Source: Rhodovulum adriaticum (GTDB lineage Bacteria; Pseudomonadota; Alphaproteobacteria; Rhodobacterales; Rhodobacteraceae). Taken from it: a stretch of 64,000 nt of DNA. A model generated the notes under the pieces. That model saw nothing but the letters and a program-made list of their open reading frames with translations, was not told where the DNA came from and searched no databases. The position numbers were made by a program, and so were the translations under genes. Below are positions 35,442-45,755 of this stretch, in pieces (positions within the stretch are counted from its first letter, which is position 1; each line of letters begins with the position of its first letter). The stretch covers positions 248,001 through 312,000 of the forward strand of contig NZ_SLXL01000002.1 in assembly GCF_004345735.1 (NCBI RefSeq), in the 5' to 3' direction.

Positions 35442-36443
35442 CTAGCGTGCTCCTTCCATGATGGCGGGCAGGCCCAGCTGGGTGCGGTCTACGGGGCCGG
35501 CCGGGGCATCGGTGCGGATCGCCACCCGCAGCTTGGCGGAACGCGCGCGCGGGTTAGCCTCCAGCTCTGCCGCATCGGGGGCGATGGCGCGGCGCTGCAC
35601 AAGGTGAAAGCGGGGGGCCTCGGCCACGACTTCGGGCGCATGGCGGCTGCCGCCCCCGCCGCCCGCGCTGCGCGCCTGAAGAAACCGTTTGACGACCCGG
35701 TCCTCCAGTGAATGAAAGGTCACGACCGCCAGCTTTCCGCCCGGTTTCAACGCGCGTTCGGCGGCCTCCAGCCCGGCGACCAGTTCGCCGAATTCGTCGT
35801 TCACGGCGATGCGCAACGCCTGAAAGGAACGCGTGGCAGGGTGGCTTTGCCCCGGCTTGGGACGGGGCAGGCACCGGGAAATGACCTCGGCCAGTTGGCC
35901 CGTCGTGACGATGGGGGCAACGTCGCGCGCAGCAACGATGGCGCGTGCGATGCGGCGCGCGGCGCGCTCTTCCCCGAAATGATACAGGATATCGGCGATT
36001 TCCGCCTCGGCGGCGTTGTTCACGACATCCGCCGCCGAGATGCCGTCCGTGCCCATGCGCATGTCCAGCGGCCCGTCGCGCAGAAAGGAAAAGCCGCGCT
36101 CGGCCTGATCCAGCTGCATAGAGGACACGCCCAGATCCAGCACCACGCCATCCAGCGGCCTGCCGGCATGATCGTCAAGCCGCGAAAACGTGCCCTCGAC
36201 CAGAACCAGCCGGTCGCCATAGGCGGCGGCCCAGCCCTCGGCCAGGGCAAAGACGCTGGGATCGCGATCCACCCCGATCACGCGCTCGGCGCCGGCATCA
36301 AGCAGCCCTTGGGCGTACCCCCCTGCCCCGAATGTACCGTCCAGCCACGTTCCCGACACCGGCGAGACGGCCTCCAGCAGCGGGCGCAGCAGCACGGGAA
36401 TATGCGGGGAATTGTCGGCGTCCCGGCGTTGCGCACTGGACAT
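35442..36443 (-). CDS. rsmH: 16S rRNA (cytosine-1402-N4)-methyltransferase RsmH
   Basis: A 333-residue SAM-dependent methyltransferase (formerly MraW) that methylates C1402 in the ribosomal P site. Motifs: [14 protein letters not shown] at the start, the SAM loop [37 protein letters not shown], and the C-terminal [15 protein letters not shown] and [14 protein letters not shown]. It lies 3 nt after mraZ, the usual first pair of dcw clusters. Confidence 0.97.
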
Positions 36444-36446
36444 CGC

Positions 36447-36950
36447 CTAGCCCCCCGCCGGTTGGTCAAGCAGCGACAGCGGGTCGAAATCGTCGGGCTG
36501 GGCATCCAGCCAGGCCTCGGTCTTGGCCAGTTCCTCGGATTCGTAGGTTTCCGGCTTCCAGATCTGGAAGGTATCGCCCGAGGCGATGAAGAAGGCCTCT
36601 TTCTCCAGCTCGATCTTGTCGCGCAGTTTCTGCGGCAGCACCAGGCGGCCGTCATTATCGACCTCGGTCGGGAAGGACTGGCCATGGAACAGGCGTTCAA
36701 GCATGCGCCGCTCGATCGAGCCGCGCGGGAGGGCGGCAATCTTGTCGTCCACCTCGTCGATGGCCTCGATCGTATAGCATTCCAGGAATTTCCGGCGGTG
36801 ATCCCCGTAGACGATCACCAGTTGCGGGCGCAGACCATCGGTCCAGTCGGGATCGCAGGATTCGAGCACACGGCGAAAGTTGGCTGGGATCGAAACCCTG
36901 CCCTTGGCATCCACCTTGTGGCGGCCTTCGCCTCTGAATCTGCGCGCCAC
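36447..36950 (-). CDS. mraZ: Transcriptional regulator MraZ
   Basis: A 167-residue DNA-binding protein of the SpoVT/AbrB-like double-psi barrel type, normally a ring-shaped oligomer that represses its own dcw operon. The two tandem domains show HKVDAKGRVSIPANFR and VDNDGRLVLPQKLRD. I chose the GTG start giving MARRFRGEGRHKVD, with AGGAG 11 nt upstream, because the family begins here; an ATG at 37016 would add 22 unconserved residues. It opens the dcw cluster, with a 593-nt upstream region that holds 10-bp phased TGGGA repeats. Confidence 0.92.
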   Translation of the reverse strand: MARRFRGEGRHKVDAKGRVSIPANFRRVLESCDPDWTDGLRPQLVIVYGDHRRKFLECYTIEAIDEVDDKIAALPRGSIERRMLERLFHGQSFPTEVDNDGRLVLPQKLRDKIELEKEAFFIASGDTFQIWKPETYESEELAKTEAWLDAQPDDFDPLSLLDQPAGG

Positions 36951-37201
36951 CGTCCCCGACGCTCCTTCATTGTTTCGCCCGCCGATTGCGAAAACGGCGG
37001 ACTGAGCTGCTGCCACTGCCCAATCCGCCGCCCTCGTCCCACTCTGGGGTGTCCGGCTACGCGCGCCACCTGGGGGGGATGTCTGCTCGCCCGCGCGCCG
37101 GATCTCTGTTTTTCGATGAAAGCGGGGGCCTGTATGAAACCTGCTTTGCCTTGTCGGGGTCTTGGTGCCCCTGTGGTATGCCCGTCCTCATCGGATGAAT
37201 A

Positions 37202-37251
37202 AGGGATGCCATGGGAATTCATGGAAATCAAGCTTCCTGTATGGGAATTCG
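37202..37251. promoter_or_regulatory. Candidate MraZ operator: TGGGA repeats at 10-bp steps
   Basis: Reading the plus strand, AGGGA, TGGGA, TGGAA and TGGGA occur at 37202, 37212, 37222 and 37242, exactly 10 bp (or 20 bp) apart; ATGGGAATTC is repeated exactly at 37211 and 37241. MraZ is known to bind direct repeats of TGGG-type boxes spaced 5 nt apart, so a ring protein could contact one face of this DNA. The site is about 250 nt upstream of the mraZ GTG. A second, weaker group of TGGG/AGGG boxes lies nearer the gene at about 37014-37044 on the minus strand. The rest of this 593-nt gap shows no gene. Confidence 0.4.
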
Positions 37252-37443
37252 ATACCACATGCTGTGCGACAGGGGGTGTCCGAACAAGATTTGGACCGGG
37301 GCAGGCGCCCAGGATCACAATTCTTAGCGAAATAGACAACCCTGCGAACAACATATAGCGCCGCCCGACAGCCAAGCAGCGGCGCCCATGATTTCCCAAG
37401 ATTTCGCCAGATATTGCCCCGCAGGGGCCACACGCACCCCGAG

Positions 37444-37476
37444 AAAGACAAAAATCCCCGCCTGTTCGACGGGGAT
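37444..37476 (-). terminator. Rho-independent terminator after mrp
   Basis: On the minus strand a 7-bp stem (ATCCCCG and CGGGGAT, 9-nt loop) is followed by TTTTTGTCTTTC. It lies about 70 nt after the mrp stop and should isolate mrp from the mraZ-led operon. Confidence 0.75.
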
Positions 37477-37543
37477 CCGGGCAAGTGATTCGCCTATTGC
37501 GCCCCGAACAACCCGCCCGGGGCCATGAATTCCCGTAGGACGA

Positions 37544-38614
37544 TCAGGCCATCCCGCCGCCGATCAAGCGGGCGGCCAGCTGACCGTAGGCCTCTGCAAC
37601 CGGTCCATCGCCCAGGGCGACGGGCTGACCGCCGTCGCCAGCCTCGCGCACCTCCAGCGCAAGGGGCAGCGCGCCCAGGAACGGCACGCCGATCCTTTCG
37701 GCCTCGGCCGCGACCCCACCGTGACCGAAGATATGCGCCTCGTGCCCGCAATTGGGGCAGACATAGCTGGACATGTTCTCGATCAGGCCCAGAACGGGCG
37801 TCTTCAGCTTGGCGAACATGTCGATTGCCTTGCGCGCATCCAGCAGCGCCACATCCTGTGGCGTGGACACAACCAGCGCGCCGGTCAGCTTCGTGCGCTG
37901 GCACAGGGTCAGTTGGATGTCGCCCGTGCCCGGCGGCAGGTCCACGATCAGCACGTCCAACCGGCCCCAGTTCACCTGCCCCAGCAATTGCTGCAACGCC
38001 CCCATCAGCATCGGCCCCCGCCAGATCACCGCCTGATCGTCGTCCAGCATCAGGCCGATCGACATCATCGTGACGCCATGGGCGGTAACCGGTTCGATCG
38101 TCTGCCCATCGCCCGAGGCGGGGCGCCGGTTCACGCCCATCATGCGCGGCTGCGAGGGGCCGTAGATATCCGCATCCAACAAACCCACGCGCCGCCCCTG
38201 CCGGGCCAGCGCCACGGCCAGGTTGCTGGCCACGGTAGATTTCCCGACCCCACCCTTGCCCGACGCCACGGCAAGAATCCGGTCAACCCCGGTCGGGTTT
38301 TCCGGCCCCTTGCCAGGGGTAGGATGGCGGCCGATCTTGACGCCCTGCGCCGGTGGCTTGGACGCGGGGCCGTGGGCGGTCAGCACCGCCGAAACGGTCT
38401 GCACCCCCTCCAGCGCAGCGACTACGGCCTGGGCGGCAGCGCGCACGGGTTCCAGCCCTGCGGCCTGACCGGCATCCTGCGCCTCGATCACGAAACGGAC
38501 GGTGTCGCCCTCCACGCTCAGCGCGCGCACCATGTCGCGGGACACCAGATCGCCCCCGTCGGGCAGATCGATTCGGGACAGGGCGGCAAGGACGGTATCG
38601 CGGGACGGTGACAT
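37544..38614 (-). CDS. mrp: Mrp/NBP35-type iron-sulfur cluster carrier ATPase
   Basis: A 356-residue cytoplasmic P-loop ATPase that holds and delivers Fe-S clusters. Residues about 8-80 form the MIP18/DUF59-like N-terminal domain, then a Pro-rich linker, then the ATPase domain with the deviant Walker A SGKGGVGKST at residues 118-127 and LLDADIYGPSQPRMM. The cluster-binding CPNC motif is in SSYVCPNCGHEAHIF. The ATG giving MSPSRDTV has AAGGA 6 nt upstream; an ATG six codons earlier is less likely. A terminator follows. Upstream it is divergent from the small RNA array. Confidence 0.92.
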   Translation of the reverse strand: MSPSRDTVLAALSRIDLPDGGDLVSRDMVRALSVEGDTVRFVIEAQDAGQAAGLEPVRAAAQAVVAALEGVQTVSAVLTAHGPASKPPAQGVKIGRHPTPGKGPENPTGVDRILAVASGKGGVGKSTVASNLAVALARQGRRVGLLDADIYGPSQPRMMGVNRRPASGDGQTIEPVTAHGVTMMSIGLMLDDDQAVIWRGPMLMGALQQLLGQVNWGRLDVLIVDLPPGTGDIQLTLCQRTKLTGALVVSTPQDVALLDARKAIDMFAKLKTPVLGLIENMSSYVCPNCGHEAHIFGHGGVAAEAERIGVPFLGALPLALEVREAGDGGQPVALGDGPVAEAYGQLAARLIGGGMA

Positions 38615-38782
38615 GGCGCTTCCTTCTGGCAATCGGTCTGCCCTTTAACTTGGACACCCGGGAAAAAACGGCAAGGGCGATTCATCTTTGCCCGAAACTG
38701 CGGCAGACCGCCGCAGGACCGCCCCAACATGCATCGGAAAACACATGCATTTTCTGCATAGCGGCATTTACCCCGCAAGCCA

Positions 38783-38810
38783 TTGTGCACCCGCAGCATC
38801 GCGTTATCTT
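38783..38810 (+). promoter_or_regulatory. Candidate promoter of the hairpin RNA array
   Basis: TTGTGC (38783-38788) and TATCTT (38805-38810) are separated by 16 nt and would start transcription near 38817, about 50 nt before the first hairpin. In Rhodobacter sphaeroides the related RNAs depend on RpoH-type sigma factors; this sequence does not let me tell sigma-70 from RpoH. Farther upstream, ACATGCAT occurs twice (38727 and 38743), 16 bp apart, in the gap shared with mrp. Confidence 0.4.
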
Positions 38811-38865
38811 AAGTCCAACGCAACGGGGTGTGCGGGTGTTCATACCGTCCCCGGAGCCGAGTTTC

Positions 38866-38940
38866 GGAAACCCCTCCTCCTCCCTGGGTTTCCTATTCTC
38901 GCGGCGGCACTCACCTCCTCCCGGGTGCCGCCGCATTTTT
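38866..38940 (+). ncRNA. CcsR/cuckoo-type small RNA, first of two
   Basis: Two consecutive hairpins, each showing CCTCCTCCC in its loop. Hairpin 1 (38866-38893) has a perfect 8-bp stem GGAAACCC/GGGTTTCC around a 12-nt loop. Hairpin 2 (38901-38934) has a perfect 10-bp stem GCGGCGGCAC/GTGCCGCCGC around a 14-nt loop and is followed by ATTTTT, like a terminator. Two hairpins with exposed anti-Shine-Dalgarno CCUCCUCCC loops is the definition, as I know it, of the stress-induced CcsR or 'cuckoo' RNAs of Rhodobacterales, which pair with or titrate ribosome sites or proteins. Exact ends are not known. Confidence 0.8.
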
Positions 38941-38960
38941 ACAACGGCCCACTGGGCCAG

Positions 38961-39046
38961 TGGTCGGTGGTTCATCTCCTCCTCCCTGATGCCACCGTGA
39001 CCAAGAGCGGCGGCGCCTCCTCCTCCCTGGCGTCGCCGTTTTTCTT
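38961..39046 (+). ncRNA. CcsR/cuckoo-type small RNA, second of two
   Basis: A second pair of hairpins with the same plan. Hairpin 3 (38966-38996) pairs GGTGG with CCACC and CAT with ATG across a 2-nt bulge, with CTCCTCCTCCCT in the loop. Hairpin 4 (39008-39038) has a 10-bp stem with one G-U pair (CGGCGGCGCC/GGCGTCGCCG), the same loop, and TTTTTCTTTCT after it as terminator. The order weaker hairpin then GC-rich hairpin with T tract is the same as in the first RNA, so a tandem duplication is likely. The palindrome CCACTGGGCCAGTGG lies just before it (about 38949-38963). Confidence 0.8.
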
Positions 39047-39087
39047 TCTCGGATAGTTTGGTGAATGGGCGCGGCCCGCCCCAGCGC

Positions 39088-41520
39088 TCAGAACCGCACG
39101 TCGCCGGCCTGATCCGCCGGCACGACAAACCGCGCCACGACCTTTTTCGACCCGGCCTTGTCAAAGGCGATATCCAGCTTGTCACCCTCGATCCCCGTCA
39201 CGGTGCCATAGCCGAATTTCTTGTGGAACACGCGCGCCCCGACCTCAAAGGCCGCGACCGCCTCGGCATCGATCACCATGGACCGGCTTTCTCGCGGCTG
39301 GCTGACCGGCCGCGTCCCGGCCCGCGATTGCAGCCGCTGCCAACCCGGTGAGGTGTAACCATCCGCCCGCGCCGCAGCCTGTTCCAACCCAGAGGACACC
39401 GGCGCCGCCGCGCCATACCCGCCACCATAAAGACCGGGGGGCGTCAGAACCTCGACATGGGCCTCGGGCAATTCATCGATGAAACGCGAGGGCAGCGCCG
39501 ATTGCCACTGTCCGTAAACCCGGCGGTTGGCAGCAAAGGAGATGGTGCACACCTCCTCGGCCCGGGTGATGCCGACATAGGCCAGGCGGCGCTCTTCCTC
39601 CAACCCCTTCAAACCGCTTTCGTCCATCGACCGCTGGCTGGGAAACAGGCCGTCCTCCCACCCGGGCAGAAAGACCACGGGAAATTCCAAGCCCTTGGCG
39701 GCGTGCAGGGTCATGATCGTGATCTTGGCGCCCTGCTCCTCGGTCTCGTTGTCCATGATAAGGGCGACATGCTCCAGAAACCCTTGCAGGTTCTCGAATT
39801 CCTCCAGCGCCTTGACCAGCTCCTTGAGATTTTCCAGCCGCCCCGGCGCCTCTGGCGTCTTGTCGTTCTGCCAATGCGCAGTGTAGCCAGATTCGTCCAG
39901 GATCTGTTCGGCCAGTTCGATGTGGCTAATACCGGCACCGGAAAGGTCGCCGGCCCCCTCGTCTTCGATCAACAGCCCGTCACCCGCCGCGCCCCGCGAT
40001 GCGGGCCGGCGGGCCAGGTCATGCCAGCGCGCAATCCCGTCCAGCAACCGCCCCAGTTCCCTGGCCCCCTTGCCGGTCAGCCCCCCGTTTTCCAGCAACA
40101 GCCGCGCGCCCTCCACCAGCGGCACGCCGTTGGCGCGCGCCATCTGCTGGATCTTTTGCTGCGCCTTGTCGCCCAGCCCGCGTTTCGGCGTGTTCACGAT
40201 CCGCTCAAACGCCAGATCGTCGTCGGGGCTGACGGCGAGGCGGAAATAGGCCATCGCGTCGCGGATCTCCATCCGCTCGTAAAAGCGCGGCCCGCCGATC
40301 ACCCGGTAGGGCAGGCCGATGGTCAGGAACCGATCCTCAAAGGCGCGCATCTGGTGCGACGCGCGGACAAGGATCGCCATGTCGTCCAGCGAATAGGGCC
40401 GCAGCCCCCGCGTGCCCGCAACCACCGCCTCGGCCTCTTCGCCGATCCAGCGGGCCTCTTCCTCTCCGTCCCAATGGCCGATCAAGCGAACCTTTTCGCC
40501 CTCGCGGGCCTCGGTCCACAGCGTCTTGCCCAGCCGGTCCTTGTTGGCCGCGATCACGCCGCTGGCGGCGGCCAGAATATGCGGGGTAGAGCGGTAGTTC
40601 TGCTCCAGCCGGATCACCCGCGCGCCGGGAAAATCCTTCTCGAACCGCAGGATGTTGCCAACCTCTGCGCCCCGCCAGCCATAGATGGACTGGTCGTCAT
40701 CGCCCACGCAGCAGATATTCCTGTGCCCCCCCGCCAAGAGCCGCAGCCACAGATACTGGGCAACGTTGGTGTCCTGATACTCGTCGACCAGGATATAGCG
40801 GAACCAGCGGCGGTATTGCTCCAGCACGTCCCCGTGGCTCTGGAAGATGGTGACCATGTGCAGCAACAGATCGCCGAAATCGACGGCGTTGAGGGCAAGC
40901 AGCCGTTTCTGGTAATCGGCGTAAAGCGCCACCCCGCGATTATCGAAGGCCGCTGCCTCGCTCGCCGGAACATTGTCAGGCGTCCAGGCGCGGTTCTTCC
41001 AATGATCGATGATGCCGGCCAGTTGCCGGGCAGGCCACCGCTTTTCATCGATATTGGCCGCCACGATCAGCTGCTTCAGCAGCCGGATCTGGTCGTCAGT
41101 GTCCAGGATCGTGAAATTCGACTTCAACCCCGCCAGTTCCGCATGCCGCCTGAGCAGTTTCACGCAGATCGCATGAAAGGTGCCCATCCAGGGCATTCCC
41201 TCCACGGTCTGCCCCATCAGGCCGCCAACGCGCGCCTTCATCTCGCGCGCGGCCTTGTTGGTAAAGGTGACGGCCAAAACCTCATTCGGCCGCGCCTTGC
41301 CGGTGTTCAGCAAATGCGCGATCCGGGTGGTCAACGCGCGGGTCTTGCCGGTGCCCGCGCCCGCCAGCATCAGAACCGGCCCTTCCAACGTCTCCACCGC
41401 CTGCCGCTGCGCGGGGTTCAAACCGTCAAGATAGGGGACAGGCCGCGCCGCCATGGCGCGCTGGCTCAACGGCACGTTTTCTGCCGCCTCAAAGGCGTCG
41501 GTATCGTCGATGGGACTCAT
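39088..41520 (-). CDS. uvrD: UvrD/PcrA-type DNA helicase
   Basis: An 810-residue superfamily 1A 3'-5' helicase that acts in nucleotide excision repair and clears proteins from DNA. Walker A is LMLAGAGTGKTRAL, helicase motif II is ILVDEYQDTN, motif III is VGDDDQSIYGWRGAE, motif IV LEQNYRST, and motif V TLHAAKGLEFPVVFLPG. The C-terminal DIAFDKAGSKKVVARFV is a Tudor-like end found in PcrA/UvrD. The chosen ATG gives MSPIDDTDAFEAAENVPLSQ. A GTTC-N7-GTTC LexA box lies 42-56 nt upstream, so SOS control is likely. It converges on the small RNA array. Confidence 0.93.
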   Translation of the reverse strand: MSPIDDTDAFEAAENVPLSQRAMAARPVPYLDGLNPAQRQAVETLEGPVLMLAGAGTGKTRALTTRIAHLLNTGKARPNEVLAVTFTNKAAREMKARVGGLMGQTVEGMPWMGTFHAICVKLLRRHAELAGLKSNFTILDTDDQIRLLKQLIVAANIDEKRWPARQLAGIIDHWKNRAWTPDNVPASEAAAFDNRGVALYADYQKRLLALNAVDFGDLLLHMVTIFQSHGDVLEQYRRWFRYILVDEYQDTNVAQYLWLRLLAGGHRNICCVGDDDQSIYGWRGAEVGNILRFEKDFPGARVIRLEQNYRSTPHILAAASGVIAANKDRLGKTLWTEAREGEKVRLIGHWDGEEEARWIGEEAEAVVAGTRGLRPYSLDDMAILVRASHQMRAFEDRFLTIGLPYRVIGGPRFYERMEIRDAMAYFRLAVSPDDDLAFERIVNTPKRGLGDKAQQKIQQMARANGVPLVEGARLLLENGGLTGKGARELGRLLDGIARWHDLARRPASRGAAGDGLLIEDEGAGDLSGAGISHIELAEQILDESGYTAHWQNDKTPEAPGRLENLKELVKALEEFENLQGFLEHVALIMDNETEEQGAKITIMTLHAAKGLEFPVVFLPGWEDGLFPSQRSMDESGLKGLEEERRLAYVGITRAEEVCTISFAANRRVYGQWQSALPSRFIDELPEAHVEVLTPPGLYGGGYGAAAPVSSGLEQAAARADGYTSPGWQRLQSRAGTRPVSQPRESRSMVIDAEAVAAFEVGARVFHKKFGYGTVTGIEGDKLDIAFDKAGSKKVVARFVVPADQAGDVRF

Positions 41521-41561
41521 ACGCGGCAACCTAGCGCGCCTCGCGGTGGAGTTAAAGAATT

Positions 41562-41576
41562 GTTCGCACAATGTTC
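41562..41576. promoter_or_regulatory. LexA (SOS) box upstream of uvrD
   Basis: The sequence GTTC-GCACAAT-GTTC matches exactly the alphaproteobacterial LexA consensus GTTC-N7-GTTC. It lies 42-56 nt upstream of the helicase start codon, where a promoter is expected. This predicts induction of uvrD by DNA damage. Confidence 0.75.
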
Positions 41577-41633
41577 CACCCAGAACCGCACCTTTTCCCA
41601 CCCTGAAAAGCTGGGGACAGGCGCGCCCCTGCC

Positions 41634-41828: not shown

Positions 41829-44800
41829 TTGACCGAATTCAAGAAAATCCTCGTCGCCAACCGCGGTGAAATCGCGATCCGTATCATGCGGGCGGCCAAC
41901 GAGTTGGGCAAACGCACCGTCGCCGTCTACGCCGAAGAGGACAAGCTGGGCCTGCACCGCTTCAAGGCGGACGAGGCCTACAAGATCGGCGAGGGGCTGG
42001 GCCCGGTGCAGGCCTACCTGTCGATCGAGGAAATCATTCGCGTGGCCAAGATGTCGGGCGCGGACGCGGTCCATCCCGGTTATGGCCTGCTGTCGGAAAA
42101 CCCCGAATTCGTCGAGGCCTGCGCCGCCGAGGGCATCACCTTCATCGGCCCCAAGGCCGAAACCATGCGCGCCCTCGGCGACAAGGCATCGGCCCGCAAG
42201 GTGGCGATTGCCGCAGGCGTGCCGGTCATCCCCGCGACCGAGGTGCTGGGCGACGACATGGACGCCATCGCCAAGGAGGCCGAGGAAATCGGCTATCCCC
42301 TGATGCTCAAGGCATCCTGGGGCGGCGGCGGGCGCGGCATGCGCCCCATCAACGGCCCCGAAGAGCTGGAGGACAAGGTGCGCGAGGGGCGGCGCGAGGC
42401 CGAGGCCGCCTTCGGCAATGGCGAGGGGTATCTGGAAAAGATGATCACCCGCGCCCGGCATGTCGAAGTGCAGATCCTGGGCGACAGCCAGGGCAACATC
42501 TACCACCTGTGGGAACGGGACTGTTCCGTGCAGCGGCGCAACCAGAAGGTCGTGGAACGCGCCCCCGCCCCCTACCTGTCCCCGGCGCAGCGCGAACACC
42601 TGTGCAACCTCGGCAAGAAGATCGCCGAACAGGTCGGCTATGAATGCGCGGGCACCATCGAATTCCTGATGGATATGGAAACGGGCGAGTTCTACTTCAT
42701 CGAGGTGAACCCGCGCGTGCAGGTCGAACACACCGTCACCGAGGAAGTGACCGGCATCGACATCGTGCAGGCCCAGATCATGATCGCCGAGGGCAAGTCC
42801 CTGGTCGAGGCCACGGGCGTTGCCACCCAGTATGATGTGCAGTTGAACGGCCACGCGCTGCAATGCCGGATCACGACCGAGGATCCGCTGAACAACTTCA
42901 TCCCCGATTACGGCCGCATCACCGCTTATCGCGGCGCCACCGGCATGGGCATCCGCCTGGATGGCGGCACCGCCTATTCCGGCGCGGTCATCACCCGCTA
43001 TTACGACTCGCTTCTGGAAAAGGTCACCGCCTGGGCGCCCACGCCCGAAGCCGCGATCGCCCGGATGGACCGCGCCCTGCGTGAATTCCGTATCCGCGGC
43101 GTCAGCACGAACATCGCCTTCGTCGAGAACCTGCTCAAGCACCCGACCTTCCTGAAGAACGAGTACCACACCAAGTTCATCGATCAGACGCCCGAGCTAT
43201 TCCAGTTCGCCAAGCGGCGCGACCGGGCCACGCGGCTGTTGACCTACATCGCCGATGTCACCGTGAACGGCCACCCCGAGACCGAGGGCCGCACCCGCCC
43301 GCCGGCGGAACTGAAAACGCCCCGCCCGCCGGAAAACCGGCGCGAGGCCTATGTCCCCGGCACCCGCCAGATCCTGGACGAGTTCGGGCCGCAGGCGGTC
43401 GCCGACTGGCTGGCGGACCAGAAACAACTGCTGCTGACCGACACCACGATGCGCGACGGGCACCAGTCGCTGTTGGCCACGCGGATGCGGTCCATCGACA
43501 TGATCCGCGTTGCACCCGCCTATGCGCACAACCTGTCGCAACTCTTCAGTGTGGAATGCTGGGGCGGCGCGACCTTCGACGTGGCCTACCGCTTCTTGCA
43601 GGAATGCCCGTGGCAGCGGCTGCGCGACCTGCGCGCAGCCATGCCCAACCTGATGACCCAGATGCTGCTGCGGGGGTCCAACGGGGTGGGCTACACGAAC
43701 TACCCCGACAACGTCGTGCGCGGCTTCGTCAAACAGGCCGCTGAAACCGGCGTGGACGTGTTCCGCGTGTTCGACAGCCTGAACTGGGTGGAAAACATGC
43801 GTGTCGCGATGGGCGCGGTCATCGACAACGGCAAGGTCTGCGAAGGGGCGATCTGCTATACCGGCGACATCCTGGACCCCGACCGGGCGAAATACGACCT
43901 GAAATACTATGTCGAGATGGGCAAGGCGCTGCGCGATGCCGGCGCCCATATCCTGGGGCTGAAGGACATGGCCGGCCTGCTGAAACCGGCCTCTGCCAGC
44001 ATCCTGATCAAGGCCCTGAAGGATGAGGTCGGCCTGCCCATCCATTTCCACACCCACGACACCAGCGGCATCTCAGGCGCCACGATCCTGGCCGCCGCCG
44101 AGGCGGGCGTAGACGCAGTAGACGCCGCGATGGATGCGTTTTCGGGTGGCACCTCGCAGCCCTGCCTGGGCTCCATCGTCGAGGCGTTGCGCAACACCGA
44201 ACGTGAAACGGGGATCGAGATCGAGGCCGTGCGCGAAATCTCGGACTACTGGGGACAGGTGCGGGGCCAATACGCCGCCTTCGAATCCGGCATGCAGGTG
44301 CCCGCCTCCGAGGTTTACCTCCACGAGATGCCCGGCGGGCAGTTCACCAACCTCAAGGCGCAGGCCCGCAGCCTGGGGCTGGAGGAACGCTGGCCCGAGG
44401 TCGCCAAGACCTATGCCGACGTCAACCAGATGTTCGGCGACATCGTGAAGGTCACCCCCTCGTCCAAGGTGGTCGGCGACATGGCGTTGATGATGGTCAG
44501 CCAGGGCCTGACCCGCGCGGATGTGGAAGACCCCGAGAAAGACGTGGCCTTCCCCGATTCAGTGATCGACATGATGCGCGGCAACCTGGGCCAGCCGCCC
44601 GGCGGCTTCCCCCCGGCGATCCAGAAAAAGGTGCTGAAGGGCGAGGACCCCAAGCTGGAGCGCCCCGGCAAGAACCTGCCCCCCGTCGATTTCGAGGCCG
44701 TCCGCGCCGAGGTCGAAAGCCAGTTCGAGGACGTGAAACTGGATGACGAGGATCTGAACGGATACCTGATGTATCCCAAGGTCTTTACCGATTATGCGGC

Positions 44801-45272
44801 GCGGCACTTGCAATACGGCCCCGTGCGCACCCTGCCCACGCGGACCTTCTTCTACGGGATGGAACCGGGCGAAGAGATCACAGCGGAAATCGACCCCGGC
44901 AAGACGCTGGAGATTCGCCTGCAGGCAGTGGGCGAAACCACCGAGGACGGCGAGGCCAAGGTATTTTTCGAACTGAACGGCCAGCCCCGCGTGATCCGCG
45001 TGCCCAACCGCAAGGCCAAGGCGTCCGTCGCCAAGCGCCCCAAGGCCGAACTGGGCAACCCCGCCCATGTCGGCGCGCCGATGCCCGGCGCGGTGGCCTC
45101 GGTCGTGGTCAACGTGGGCCAGACCGTCCAGGAAGGCGACCTGCTGCTGACCATCGAGGCGATGAAGATGGAAACCGGCCTGCACGCCGAACGCGACGGC
45201 ACCGTCAAGGCGGTGCACGTGACGCCCGGCGCCCAGATCGACGCCAAGGATCTGCTGATCGAATTCGAGTGA
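41829..45272 (+). CDS. pyc: Pyruvate carboxylase (single chain)
   Basis: A 1147-residue biotin enzyme that carboxylates pyruvate to oxaloacetate, refilling the TCA cycle. Residues about 1-450 are the biotin carboxylase domain (KKILVANRGEIAIRI, then LMLKASWGGGGRGMR and EVNPRVQVEHTVTEEVTG). Residues about 530-800 are the carboxyltransferase barrel (DTTMRDGHQSLLATRMR and FSVECWGGATFDVAYRFL). The C-terminal biotin carrier has the biotinylated lysine K1113 in EAMKMETG. The start is TTG with AAGGAGG 9 nt upstream. The full fused architecture of about 1150 residues is present. A strong terminator follows. Confidence 0.98.
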   Translation: MTEFKKILVANRGEIAIRIMRAANELGKRTVAVYAEEDKLGLHRFKADEAYKIGEGLGPVQAYLSIEEIIRVAKMSGADAVHPGYGLLSENPEFVEACAAEGITFIGPKAETMRALGDKASARKVAIAAGVPVIPATEVLGDDMDAIAKEAEEIGYPLMLKASWGGGGRGMRPINGPEELEDKVREGRREAEAAFGNGEGYLEKMITRARHVEVQILGDSQGNIYHLWERDCSVQRRNQKVVERAPAPYLSPAQREHLCNLGKKIAEQVGYECAGTIEFLMDMETGEFYFIEVNPRVQVEHTVTEEVTGIDIVQAQIMIAEGKSLVEATGVATQYDVQLNGHALQCRITTEDPLNNFIPDYGRITAYRGATGMGIRLDGGTAYSGAVITRYYDSLLEKVTAWAPTPEAAIARMDRALREFRIRGVSTNIAFVENLLKHPTFLKNEYHTKFIDQTPELFQFAKRRDRATRLLTYIADVTVNGHPETEGRTRPPAELKTPRPPENRREAYVPGTRQILDEFGPQAVADWLADQKQLLLTDTTMRDGHQSLLATRMRSIDMIRVAPAYAHNLSQLFSVECWGGATFDVAYRFLQECPWQRLRDLRAAMPNLMTQMLLRGSNGVGYTNYPDNVVRGFVKQAAETGVDVFRVFDSLNWVENMRVAMGAVIDNGKVCEGAICYTGDILDPDRAKYDLKYYVEMGKALRDAGAHILGLKDMAGLLKPASASILIKALKDEVGLPIHFHTHDTSGISGATILAAAEAGVDAVDAAMDAFSGGTSQPCLGSIVEALRNTERETGIEIEAVREISDYWGQVRGQYAAFESGMQVPASEVYLHEMPGGQFTNLKAQARSLGLEERWPEVAKTYADVNQMFGDIVKVTPSSKVVGDMALMMVSQGLTRADVEDPEKDVAFPDSVIDMMRGNLGQPPGGFPPAIQKKVLKGEDPKLERPGKNLPPVDFEAVRAEVESQFEDVKLDDEDLNGYLMYPKVFTDYAARHLQYGPVRTLPTRTFFYGMEPGEEITAEIDPGKTLEIRLQAVGETTEDGEAKVFFELNGQPRVIRVPNRKAKASVAKRPKAELGNPAHVGAPMPGAVASVVVNVGQTVQEGDLLLTIEAMKMETGLHAERDGTVKAVHVTPGAQIDAKDLLIEFE

Positions 45273-45459: not shown

Positions 45460-45534
45460 GCGGGCGTAGCTCAGGGGTAGAGCATTACCTTGCCAAGGTA
45501 AGGGTCGTGAGTTCGAATCTCATCGCCCGCTCCA
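45460..45534 (+). tRNA. tRNA-Gly (GCC), first copy
   Basis: A full cloverleaf: acceptor GCGGGCG/CGCCCGC, D arm GCTCAGGGGTAGAGC, anticodon arm TTACC-TTGCCAA-GGTAA with anticodon GCC, T arm GTGAG-TTCGAAT-CTCAT, discriminator T and an encoded CCA. It reads GGC and GGT glycine codons, which are heavily used in this high-GC genome. The second copy 221 nt downstream is identical. Confidence 0.97.
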
Positions 45535-45680: not shown

Positions 45681-45755
45681 GCGGGCGTAGCTCAGGGGTA
45701 GAGCATTACCTTGCCAAGGTAAGGGTCGTGAGTTCGAATCTCATCGCCCGCTCCA
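45681..45755 (+). tRNA. tRNA-Gly (GCC), second copy
   Basis: Identical to the first tRNA-Gly over all 75 bases, including the encoded CCA. The 146 nt between the two copies hold the second promoter-like segment and no gene. No integrase or direct repeat of the tRNA 3' end is seen, so this is a local duplication and not an element insertion site. Confidence 0.97.

Follow-up and report, generated by a model that had tools for sequence, protein, structure and literature searches.

Cuckoo RNAs are defined, in the available portions of PMC3927594 and PMC10746234, as RNAs made of neighbouring hairpins that carry CCUCCUCCC in each loop on differing stems. One of the closest described systems, the CcaF1-CcsR1-4 locus ('CIN1') of R. 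sphaeroides, is likewise built of tandem two-hairpin units with CCUCCUCCC loops. As far as the consulted text of the two sources goes, CcaF1 is a protein of 71 residues (PMC10253847) and is reported to take part together with RNase E in the maturation of the CcsR RNAs, in which an excess of CcaF1 is disruptive (PMC10253847, PMC8307010). The same partial accounts describe stress induction of CcsR by RpoHI/RpoHII and an effect on C1 metabolism (PMC8307010, PMC10253847).

Several hairpins and a loop motif identical to that reported below are also found in alpha-r14/NfeR1 (RF02344). NfeR1 is presented in part of PMC10746234 as a separate RNA of three hairpins, whereas the array described here scores 47.2 bits against the ar14 gathering score of 58.8. 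In Rhizobiales, AbcR or NfeR1 RNAs are driven by a LysR-type activator (PMC7486931, PMC10746234, in the sections available), of which VtlR additionally drives a gene for a small hypothetical protein (PMC7486931, in excerpt), and LsrB is called unique to Rhizobiales in the accessible part of PMC11975290. The RNA type, its loops, its tandem arrays and its link to DUF1127 genes are known already. Our literature search found no CcsR locus having lost ccaF1; the founding cuckoo, CcsR and CcaF1 papers may mention one. Here we describe an array in Rhodovulum adriaticum, within a stretch of 64,000 nucleotides analysed as a whole (the window), that comprises two units and no ccaF1, in contrast to the four units with ccaF1 of CIN1, which is known here by description.

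Four hairpins with a common loop motif

The loop motif CCTCCTCCC occurs four times in the window, on the + strand only (38876, 38914, 38978 and 39019), the copies spanning 152 nt and each lying in a predicted hairpin loop. The expectation is 0.81 occurrences per window, and four anywhere in the 64 kb were reached by 1 of 100 shuffles. The spaced pair CCTCCTCCC-N22..52-CCTCCTCCC occurs twice in the genome, both times at the array, and the reversed-control pair has 0 occurrences there. The four-hairpin array extends from 38866 to 39038 on the + strand and makes two CcsR-like pairs. Unit 1 consists of hairpin 1 (38866..38893, loop motif 38876-38884) and hairpin 2 (38901..38934, loop motif 38914-38922), which is followed by a short T run; unit 2 consists of hairpin 3 (conserved core 38965..38997, loop motif 38978-38986) and hairpin 4 (39008..39049, loop motif 39019-39027), which ends in a terminator-like T tract (39039-39049). 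Hairpin 4 went unreported in a simple terminator scan because the loop limit of that scan is 8 nt. With adjacent hairpins, CCUCCUCCC loops and variable stems, the array has the features of a cuckoo RNA; the stems of hairpin 1 are nearly uniform within Rhodovulum.

Both halves of the array are more stable than their shuffled versions (z -5.6 and -5.5, 0 of 200 shuffles equal). Folded singly, hairpin 2 (z -5.6) and hairpin 4 (z -5.3) stand out significantly from shuffles, but neither hairpin 1 (z -1.65, equalled by 13 of 200 shuffles) nor hairpin 3 (z -0.25, equalled by 80 of 200) does. In an alignment of sequences from 16 Rhodovulum genomes, the four helices have 98.3% of their 542 cells paired, versus 95.5% in shuffles, the weakest helix being that of hairpin 3 (90.6%). 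Two-sided changes occur at 9 of 34 pairs, versus 2.9 in shuffles and 0-3 with the partners slid, a result favoured by the relatedness of the rows and by a structure drawn from the window row. These compensatory changes are located in hairpins 2-4; hairpin 1, with 7 of 8 pairs invariant, gives no covariation signal because it hardly varies, and is hence neutral in this respect. The motif count, the folding against shuffles and the covariation bear out the four hairpins of the original prediction, and its division of them into two CcsR/cuckoo-type units agrees with the folding of the halves, the covariation and the CcsR1 matches given below.

The covariance-model search proposed earlier as a check was carried out with Rfam. 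At a relaxed threshold the best match in 38600-39100 was CcsR1 (RF02791), which recognised both pairs, with 54.8 bits (E 8.8e-13) and 36.1 bits (E 3e-7), neither of them reaching the gathering score of 65.3; at curated cut-offs two tRNAs are the only Rfam matches in the window. The next CcsR1 matches in the same genome have 16.6 and 15.9 bits, a threshold so loose that 8 of 14 control genomes respond to it as well. With E <= 0.001 as the limit, two or more CcsR1 matches turn up in every one of the 16 Rhodovulum genomes, and one of the 14 controls responds too; among the 61 genomes searched 31 match at this level and one reaches the gathering score. When nine arrays from the mrp site of various species were scanned, Cereibacter ovatus passed the CcsR1 cut-off (83.8 bits), two Yoonia arrays (L082 and L117) passed that of ar14, and the remaining six, four from Rhodovulum among them, stayed below all Rfam cut-offs. 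Two Rfam names therefore meet at one and the same site.

The uvrD-mrp site and its promoter block

The array is flanked by two genes on the - strand. The divergent neighbour is mrp (37544..38614, ATG start assigned from the sequence), coding for an Fe-S carrier P-loop NTPase (Pfam PF10609, 332.6 bits) that scores 313.5 bits with the NCBIfam ApbC model and does not reach its cut-off of 348. The convergent neighbour (39088..41601) codes for a UvrD/PcrA-type helicase (Pfam PF00580, PF13361), for which NCBIfam pcrA is the best model, below its cut-off. Past mrp lie the dcw genes rsmH, a penicillin-binding transpeptidase, murE, murF and mraY; past the helicase lies a complete pyruvate carboxylase gene (41829-45272, NCBIfam equivalog) on the opposite, + strand. 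Scored for presence, matches to mraY, murF, murE, the transpeptidase, rsmH, mrp and the helicase are found in the corresponding stretches of all 20 relatives, and a pyruvate carboxylase match in 17 of them. Two tRNA-Gly(GCC) genes farther on (45460-45534 and 45681-45755), with starts 221 nt apart, are equal in Rfam score and alignment. An Rfam search for UpsM near the dcw genes (36400-37700) returned no match except one at chance level to an unrelated family.

A scan with the Mrp of the window found 295 relatives, and the best 80 loci were retained as named Mrp loci; by their titles we take them to belong to Rhodobacterales genera or unclassified alphaproteobacteria. Three Rhodovulum among the 80 are also among the 16 genomes, so the two sets are not independent. 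Motifs and DUF1127 frames were counted on the strand opposite to mrp, over the 1300 nt that precede the gene. At least two CCTCCTCCC motifs are present in 72 of the 80 loci, one motif in one locus and none in seven. The original prediction had the array as a copy in a different place; comparison of the mrp-uvrD gap contradicts this, and the gap is the ancestral CcsR site. UvrD matches are found upstream of mrp in 58 of the 80 loci, some contigs among the other 22 ending there. Spaced motif pairs are present in 218 of the 295 family genomes, the reversed control being matched in a minority, and other species carry up to 13 motifs at the array. Elsewhere, long arrays of near-identical units (G204:C1 from 334949, 25 pairs; G311:C782:59908-60506, 13 pairs) are apparently products of tandem expansion.

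A DUF1127 frame accompanies the array in 67 of the 72 array loci. The five without it are the three Rhodovulum, a Rhodobacteraceae MAG (L062) and Yoonia litorea (L117), and both L062 and L117 retain the promoter block together with the array. Three of the eight non-array loci have a DUF1127 frame and five lack it, three of these five having one farther off. Two loci, L089 and L063, combine a DUF1127 frame upstream of mrp with zero CCTCCTCCC motifs, and in two Sulfitobacter loci (L064 and L097) motifs flank the DUF1127 frame on both sides. The Cereibacter ovatus array, preceded by a gene for a 71-aa DUF1127 protein (6.6e-14) as long as R. sphaeroides CcaF1, shares both the uvrD-mrp site and the promoter block with the window; Cereibacter is the genus that houses R. 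sphaeroides.

The promoter block CATTGTGCAnnnGCAGCA of the window (38781-38798, + strand) contains TTGTGC (38783-38788), which is followed after a 16-nt spacer by TATCTT (38805-38810). With 7 of 12 sigma-70 consensus bases it is a poor fit, and it went unreported in a simple promoter scan, the rules of which exclude such sites. A dyad, ATGCA-N5-TGCAT (38745..38759), lies at about -65 from the inferred start and contains T-N11-A; it is a candidate activator site, a T-N11-A core near -65 being usual in LysR-type sites. The block ATTGTGCA-N3-GCAGCA, followed by TATnT, precedes the array in all 16 Rhodovulum, 14 of them gene-less, which upholds the promoter-like element predicted directly before the array. 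The dyad core ATGC-N7-GCAT is likewise present in 16 of 16, the exact ATGCA-N5-TGCAT in 7. Of the 80 named loci, 72 carry the dyad core no farther than 420 nt from mrp, against a control count of 30 in 426,404 bases. When up to two mismatches are allowed, CATTGTGCA-N2..4-GCAGCA is matched at 70 of the 80 loci, against 16 control matches in 852,808 bases. At the same tolerance, 69 of the 72 array loci have the CATTGTGCA block versus 1 of the 8 others, the loci being related, so the block tracks the array and not mrp. The block of the window is the one that precedes the DUF1127 gene at other loci, which speaks against the independently controlled copy that had been proposed.

The -10 box of the window differs from that of Cereibacter, where CCCCATGTT, presumably resembling a sigma-32 box, stands in the place of the Rhodovulum TATnT. 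Judged by sequence, CCCCATGTT would suit the RpoHI/RpoHII promoter reported for R. sphaeroides in the available text of PMC10253847; because the -10 differs, this control may not carry over to the window. Among the promoter traits stressed in part of PMC3441632 are TTG at -36 to -34 and A at -12, and the A of the window -10 lies one base nearer than that position. The dyad shares its LysR-like T-N11-A core with the AbcR and VtlR-LsrB circuits, but the VtlR box GCAT-N3-TG-N3-T, as published in the portion of PMC7486931 at hand, is absent from the upstream regions of all 16 Rhodovulum, which rules it out at this locus; it is found in 19 of the 80 named loci, a count that has no control.

Absence of ccaF1 and its alternative explanations

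The original prediction noted the lack of a DUF1127 gene before the array, and the search of the mrp-array gap confirmed it: in the window and in 13 of its 15 congeners it turned up neither a gene nor a remnant (best 6.4 bits, E 0.19). A DUF1127 gene directly upstream of the RNAs, as in CIN1, is thus missing in the window, and the genomic position and promoter block are those of gene-bearing loci. The array has mrp alongside in all 16 Rhodovulum and the helicase within 1.5 kb in 15, the sixteenth having it within a larger stretch. Two of the 16, G002 and G010, have a DUF1127 frame in the mrp-array gap. The first motif lies 474-505 nt from mrp where the gene is present and 261-383 nt from it where the gene is absent. 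Among the 80 named loci, hairpin 1 (at most one mismatch) is found in the three Rhodovulum only; G002 and G010 share it, and their arrays are therefore of the genus type. The block is retained in all 16 Rhodovulum, and in the 14 without the gene the array follows it immediately. Hence, we regard it as very probable that the locus is the ancestral CcsR (CIN1) site of Rhodobacterales after deletion of ccaF1, with the array as a primary transcript whose CCUCCUCCC loops would block translation.

Because the Mrp tree alone is weak within Rhodovulum, eight flanking proteins were used for the genus tree (21 rows, 4554 columns, some rows lacking one protein). It rejected a single clade for the 14 gene-less Rhodovulum (p-AU 2.6e-6) and required three gain or loss changes, two of which are forced by well-supported branches alone. 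Read as losses only, the tree would imply three to five losses of ccaF1 in Rhodovulum; one old loss with two regains, in G002 and G010, needs as few changes as three losses. In the Mrp tree, Yoonia litorea L117 groups with a congener that has the gene, L082 (96/84), and the MAG L062 with the gene-bearing L050 (99/77), and these two losses therefore look separate. Since one gene-less clade is rejected and Yoonia litorea and one MAG are gene-less too, repeated loss of ccaF1 is likely, with regain as the alternative.

A DUF1127 protein acting in trans might have replaced ccaF1, the system being split yet working as before, and the distribution of such genes was examined with a profile built from 16 CcaF1-type proteins, those of G002 and G010 among them; it scored 99.7 bits at the G002 locus and 93.4 bits at that of G010. 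Each of the 16 Rhodovulum genomes has at least one DUF1127 gene, and six of the 14 gene-less species have a CcaF1-like protein elsewhere (52-70 bits), as this explanation would require. However, the best match in the window genome reaches 32.7 bits, its alignment is interrupted by a stop, and it belongs to a type that G002 possesses besides its own ccaF1; G012, the sister of the window genome in the tree, has no match to the profile at E <= 0.01. Help in trans is conceivable in most species but unlikely in G012, and replacement in trans as a general account is rather doubtful. Second CcaF1-like copies (60-99 bits) occur in 3 of 8 outgroup genomes, and paralogues are therefore old. One further genome has a second CcaF1-like gene (99.2 bits) with weak CcsR1 matches directly after it (G028:C1:709019-709566), a second such locus.

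Decay of the array into a functionless relic after the loss of ccaF1 appears improbable. Four perfect motifs are present in 9 of the 16 Rhodovulum, three in 5 and two in 2, and both ccaF1-bearing genomes have four, as decay would predict; against it, 7 of the 14 gene-less genomes still have four perfect motifs, hairpin 1 is near-invariant, hairpins 2-4 show compensatory changes, and the block is kept in all 16. It is more improbable still that these elements serve the neighbouring genes, with the block acting as promoter of mrp and the hairpins as a terminator or buffer that separates mrp from uvrD: in most loci the mrp start does lie some 150-200 nt away from the block, and the array converges on uvrD, but the block is tied to array loci rather than to mrp, and a terminator needs neither identical loops nor as many as 13 motifs. 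A second CcsR copy under its own control in a new place, with the original elsewhere, was suggested by the missing DUF1127 gene and is rejected with hardly any reservation by position and single occurrence, the array being the sole one found in the genome (36 contigs, 99.93% complete), at the site common to 72 of the 80 named loci and behind the promoter block shared with them.

Proposed mode of action and implications

At the ancestral locus without ccaF1, RNA polymerase would start near 38817 at the former promoter of ccaF1, perhaps aided by an activator on the dyad, and a transcript of about 230 nt would run through the two CcsR units and end at hairpin 4. With no mRNA ahead of the array, its RNAs would be primary transcripts, unlike the CcsR RNAs of R. 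sphaeroides, which the available parts of PMC8625941 and PMC10253847 describe as products of a 3' UTR; a single cut between the units, yielding two RNAs, would suffice for maturation. Each loop would present CCUCCUCCC to GGAGG-type ribosome sites and, by analogy, may block translation of mRNAs with strong Shine-Dalgarno sequences; rhizobial NfeR1 is reported, in the text available of PMC10746234, to silence ntrB via the same motif.

Perfect nine-base sites 3-9 nt before an ATG number two in the genome of the window, with one for the reversed control. One precedes panB (identified by Pfam) and the other a gene that we take to be glmS, recognised from 29 residues with no Pfam match. Over the 16 genomes there are 68 such sites versus 10 for the reversed control; among the 30 places read, no gene recurs in more than two and one match, in G002, is the reverse strand of the array itself, so no common target is claimed. 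A single case in one congener (L175), a site before formate-tetrahydrofolate ligase, is of interest because CcsR modulates C1 metabolism, as stated in the section of PMC10253847 available.

We tentatively entertain, as a possibility somewhat short of even, that the RNA array and not the protein is the product under selection across Rhodobacterales. This would combine repeated loss of ccaF1 (three times in Rhodovulum in the best tree, two changes being forced by well-supported branches, and once each in Yoonia litorea and the MAG) with retention of promoter and array, with a change from processed 3'-UTR RNAs to self-sufficient primary-transcript sRNAs that would mature in the absence of CcaF1, as in G012, and with a LysR-type operator present throughout the order.

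The low Rfam scores suggest that curated cut-offs would miss most such RNAs in annotation. The conserved promoter and dyad offer a concrete site for the search for a regulator. Rhodovulum provides natural strains whose RNAs have outlived ccaF1 beside congeners that still bear the gene, and with such strain pairs at hand the need for CcaF1 is directly testable.
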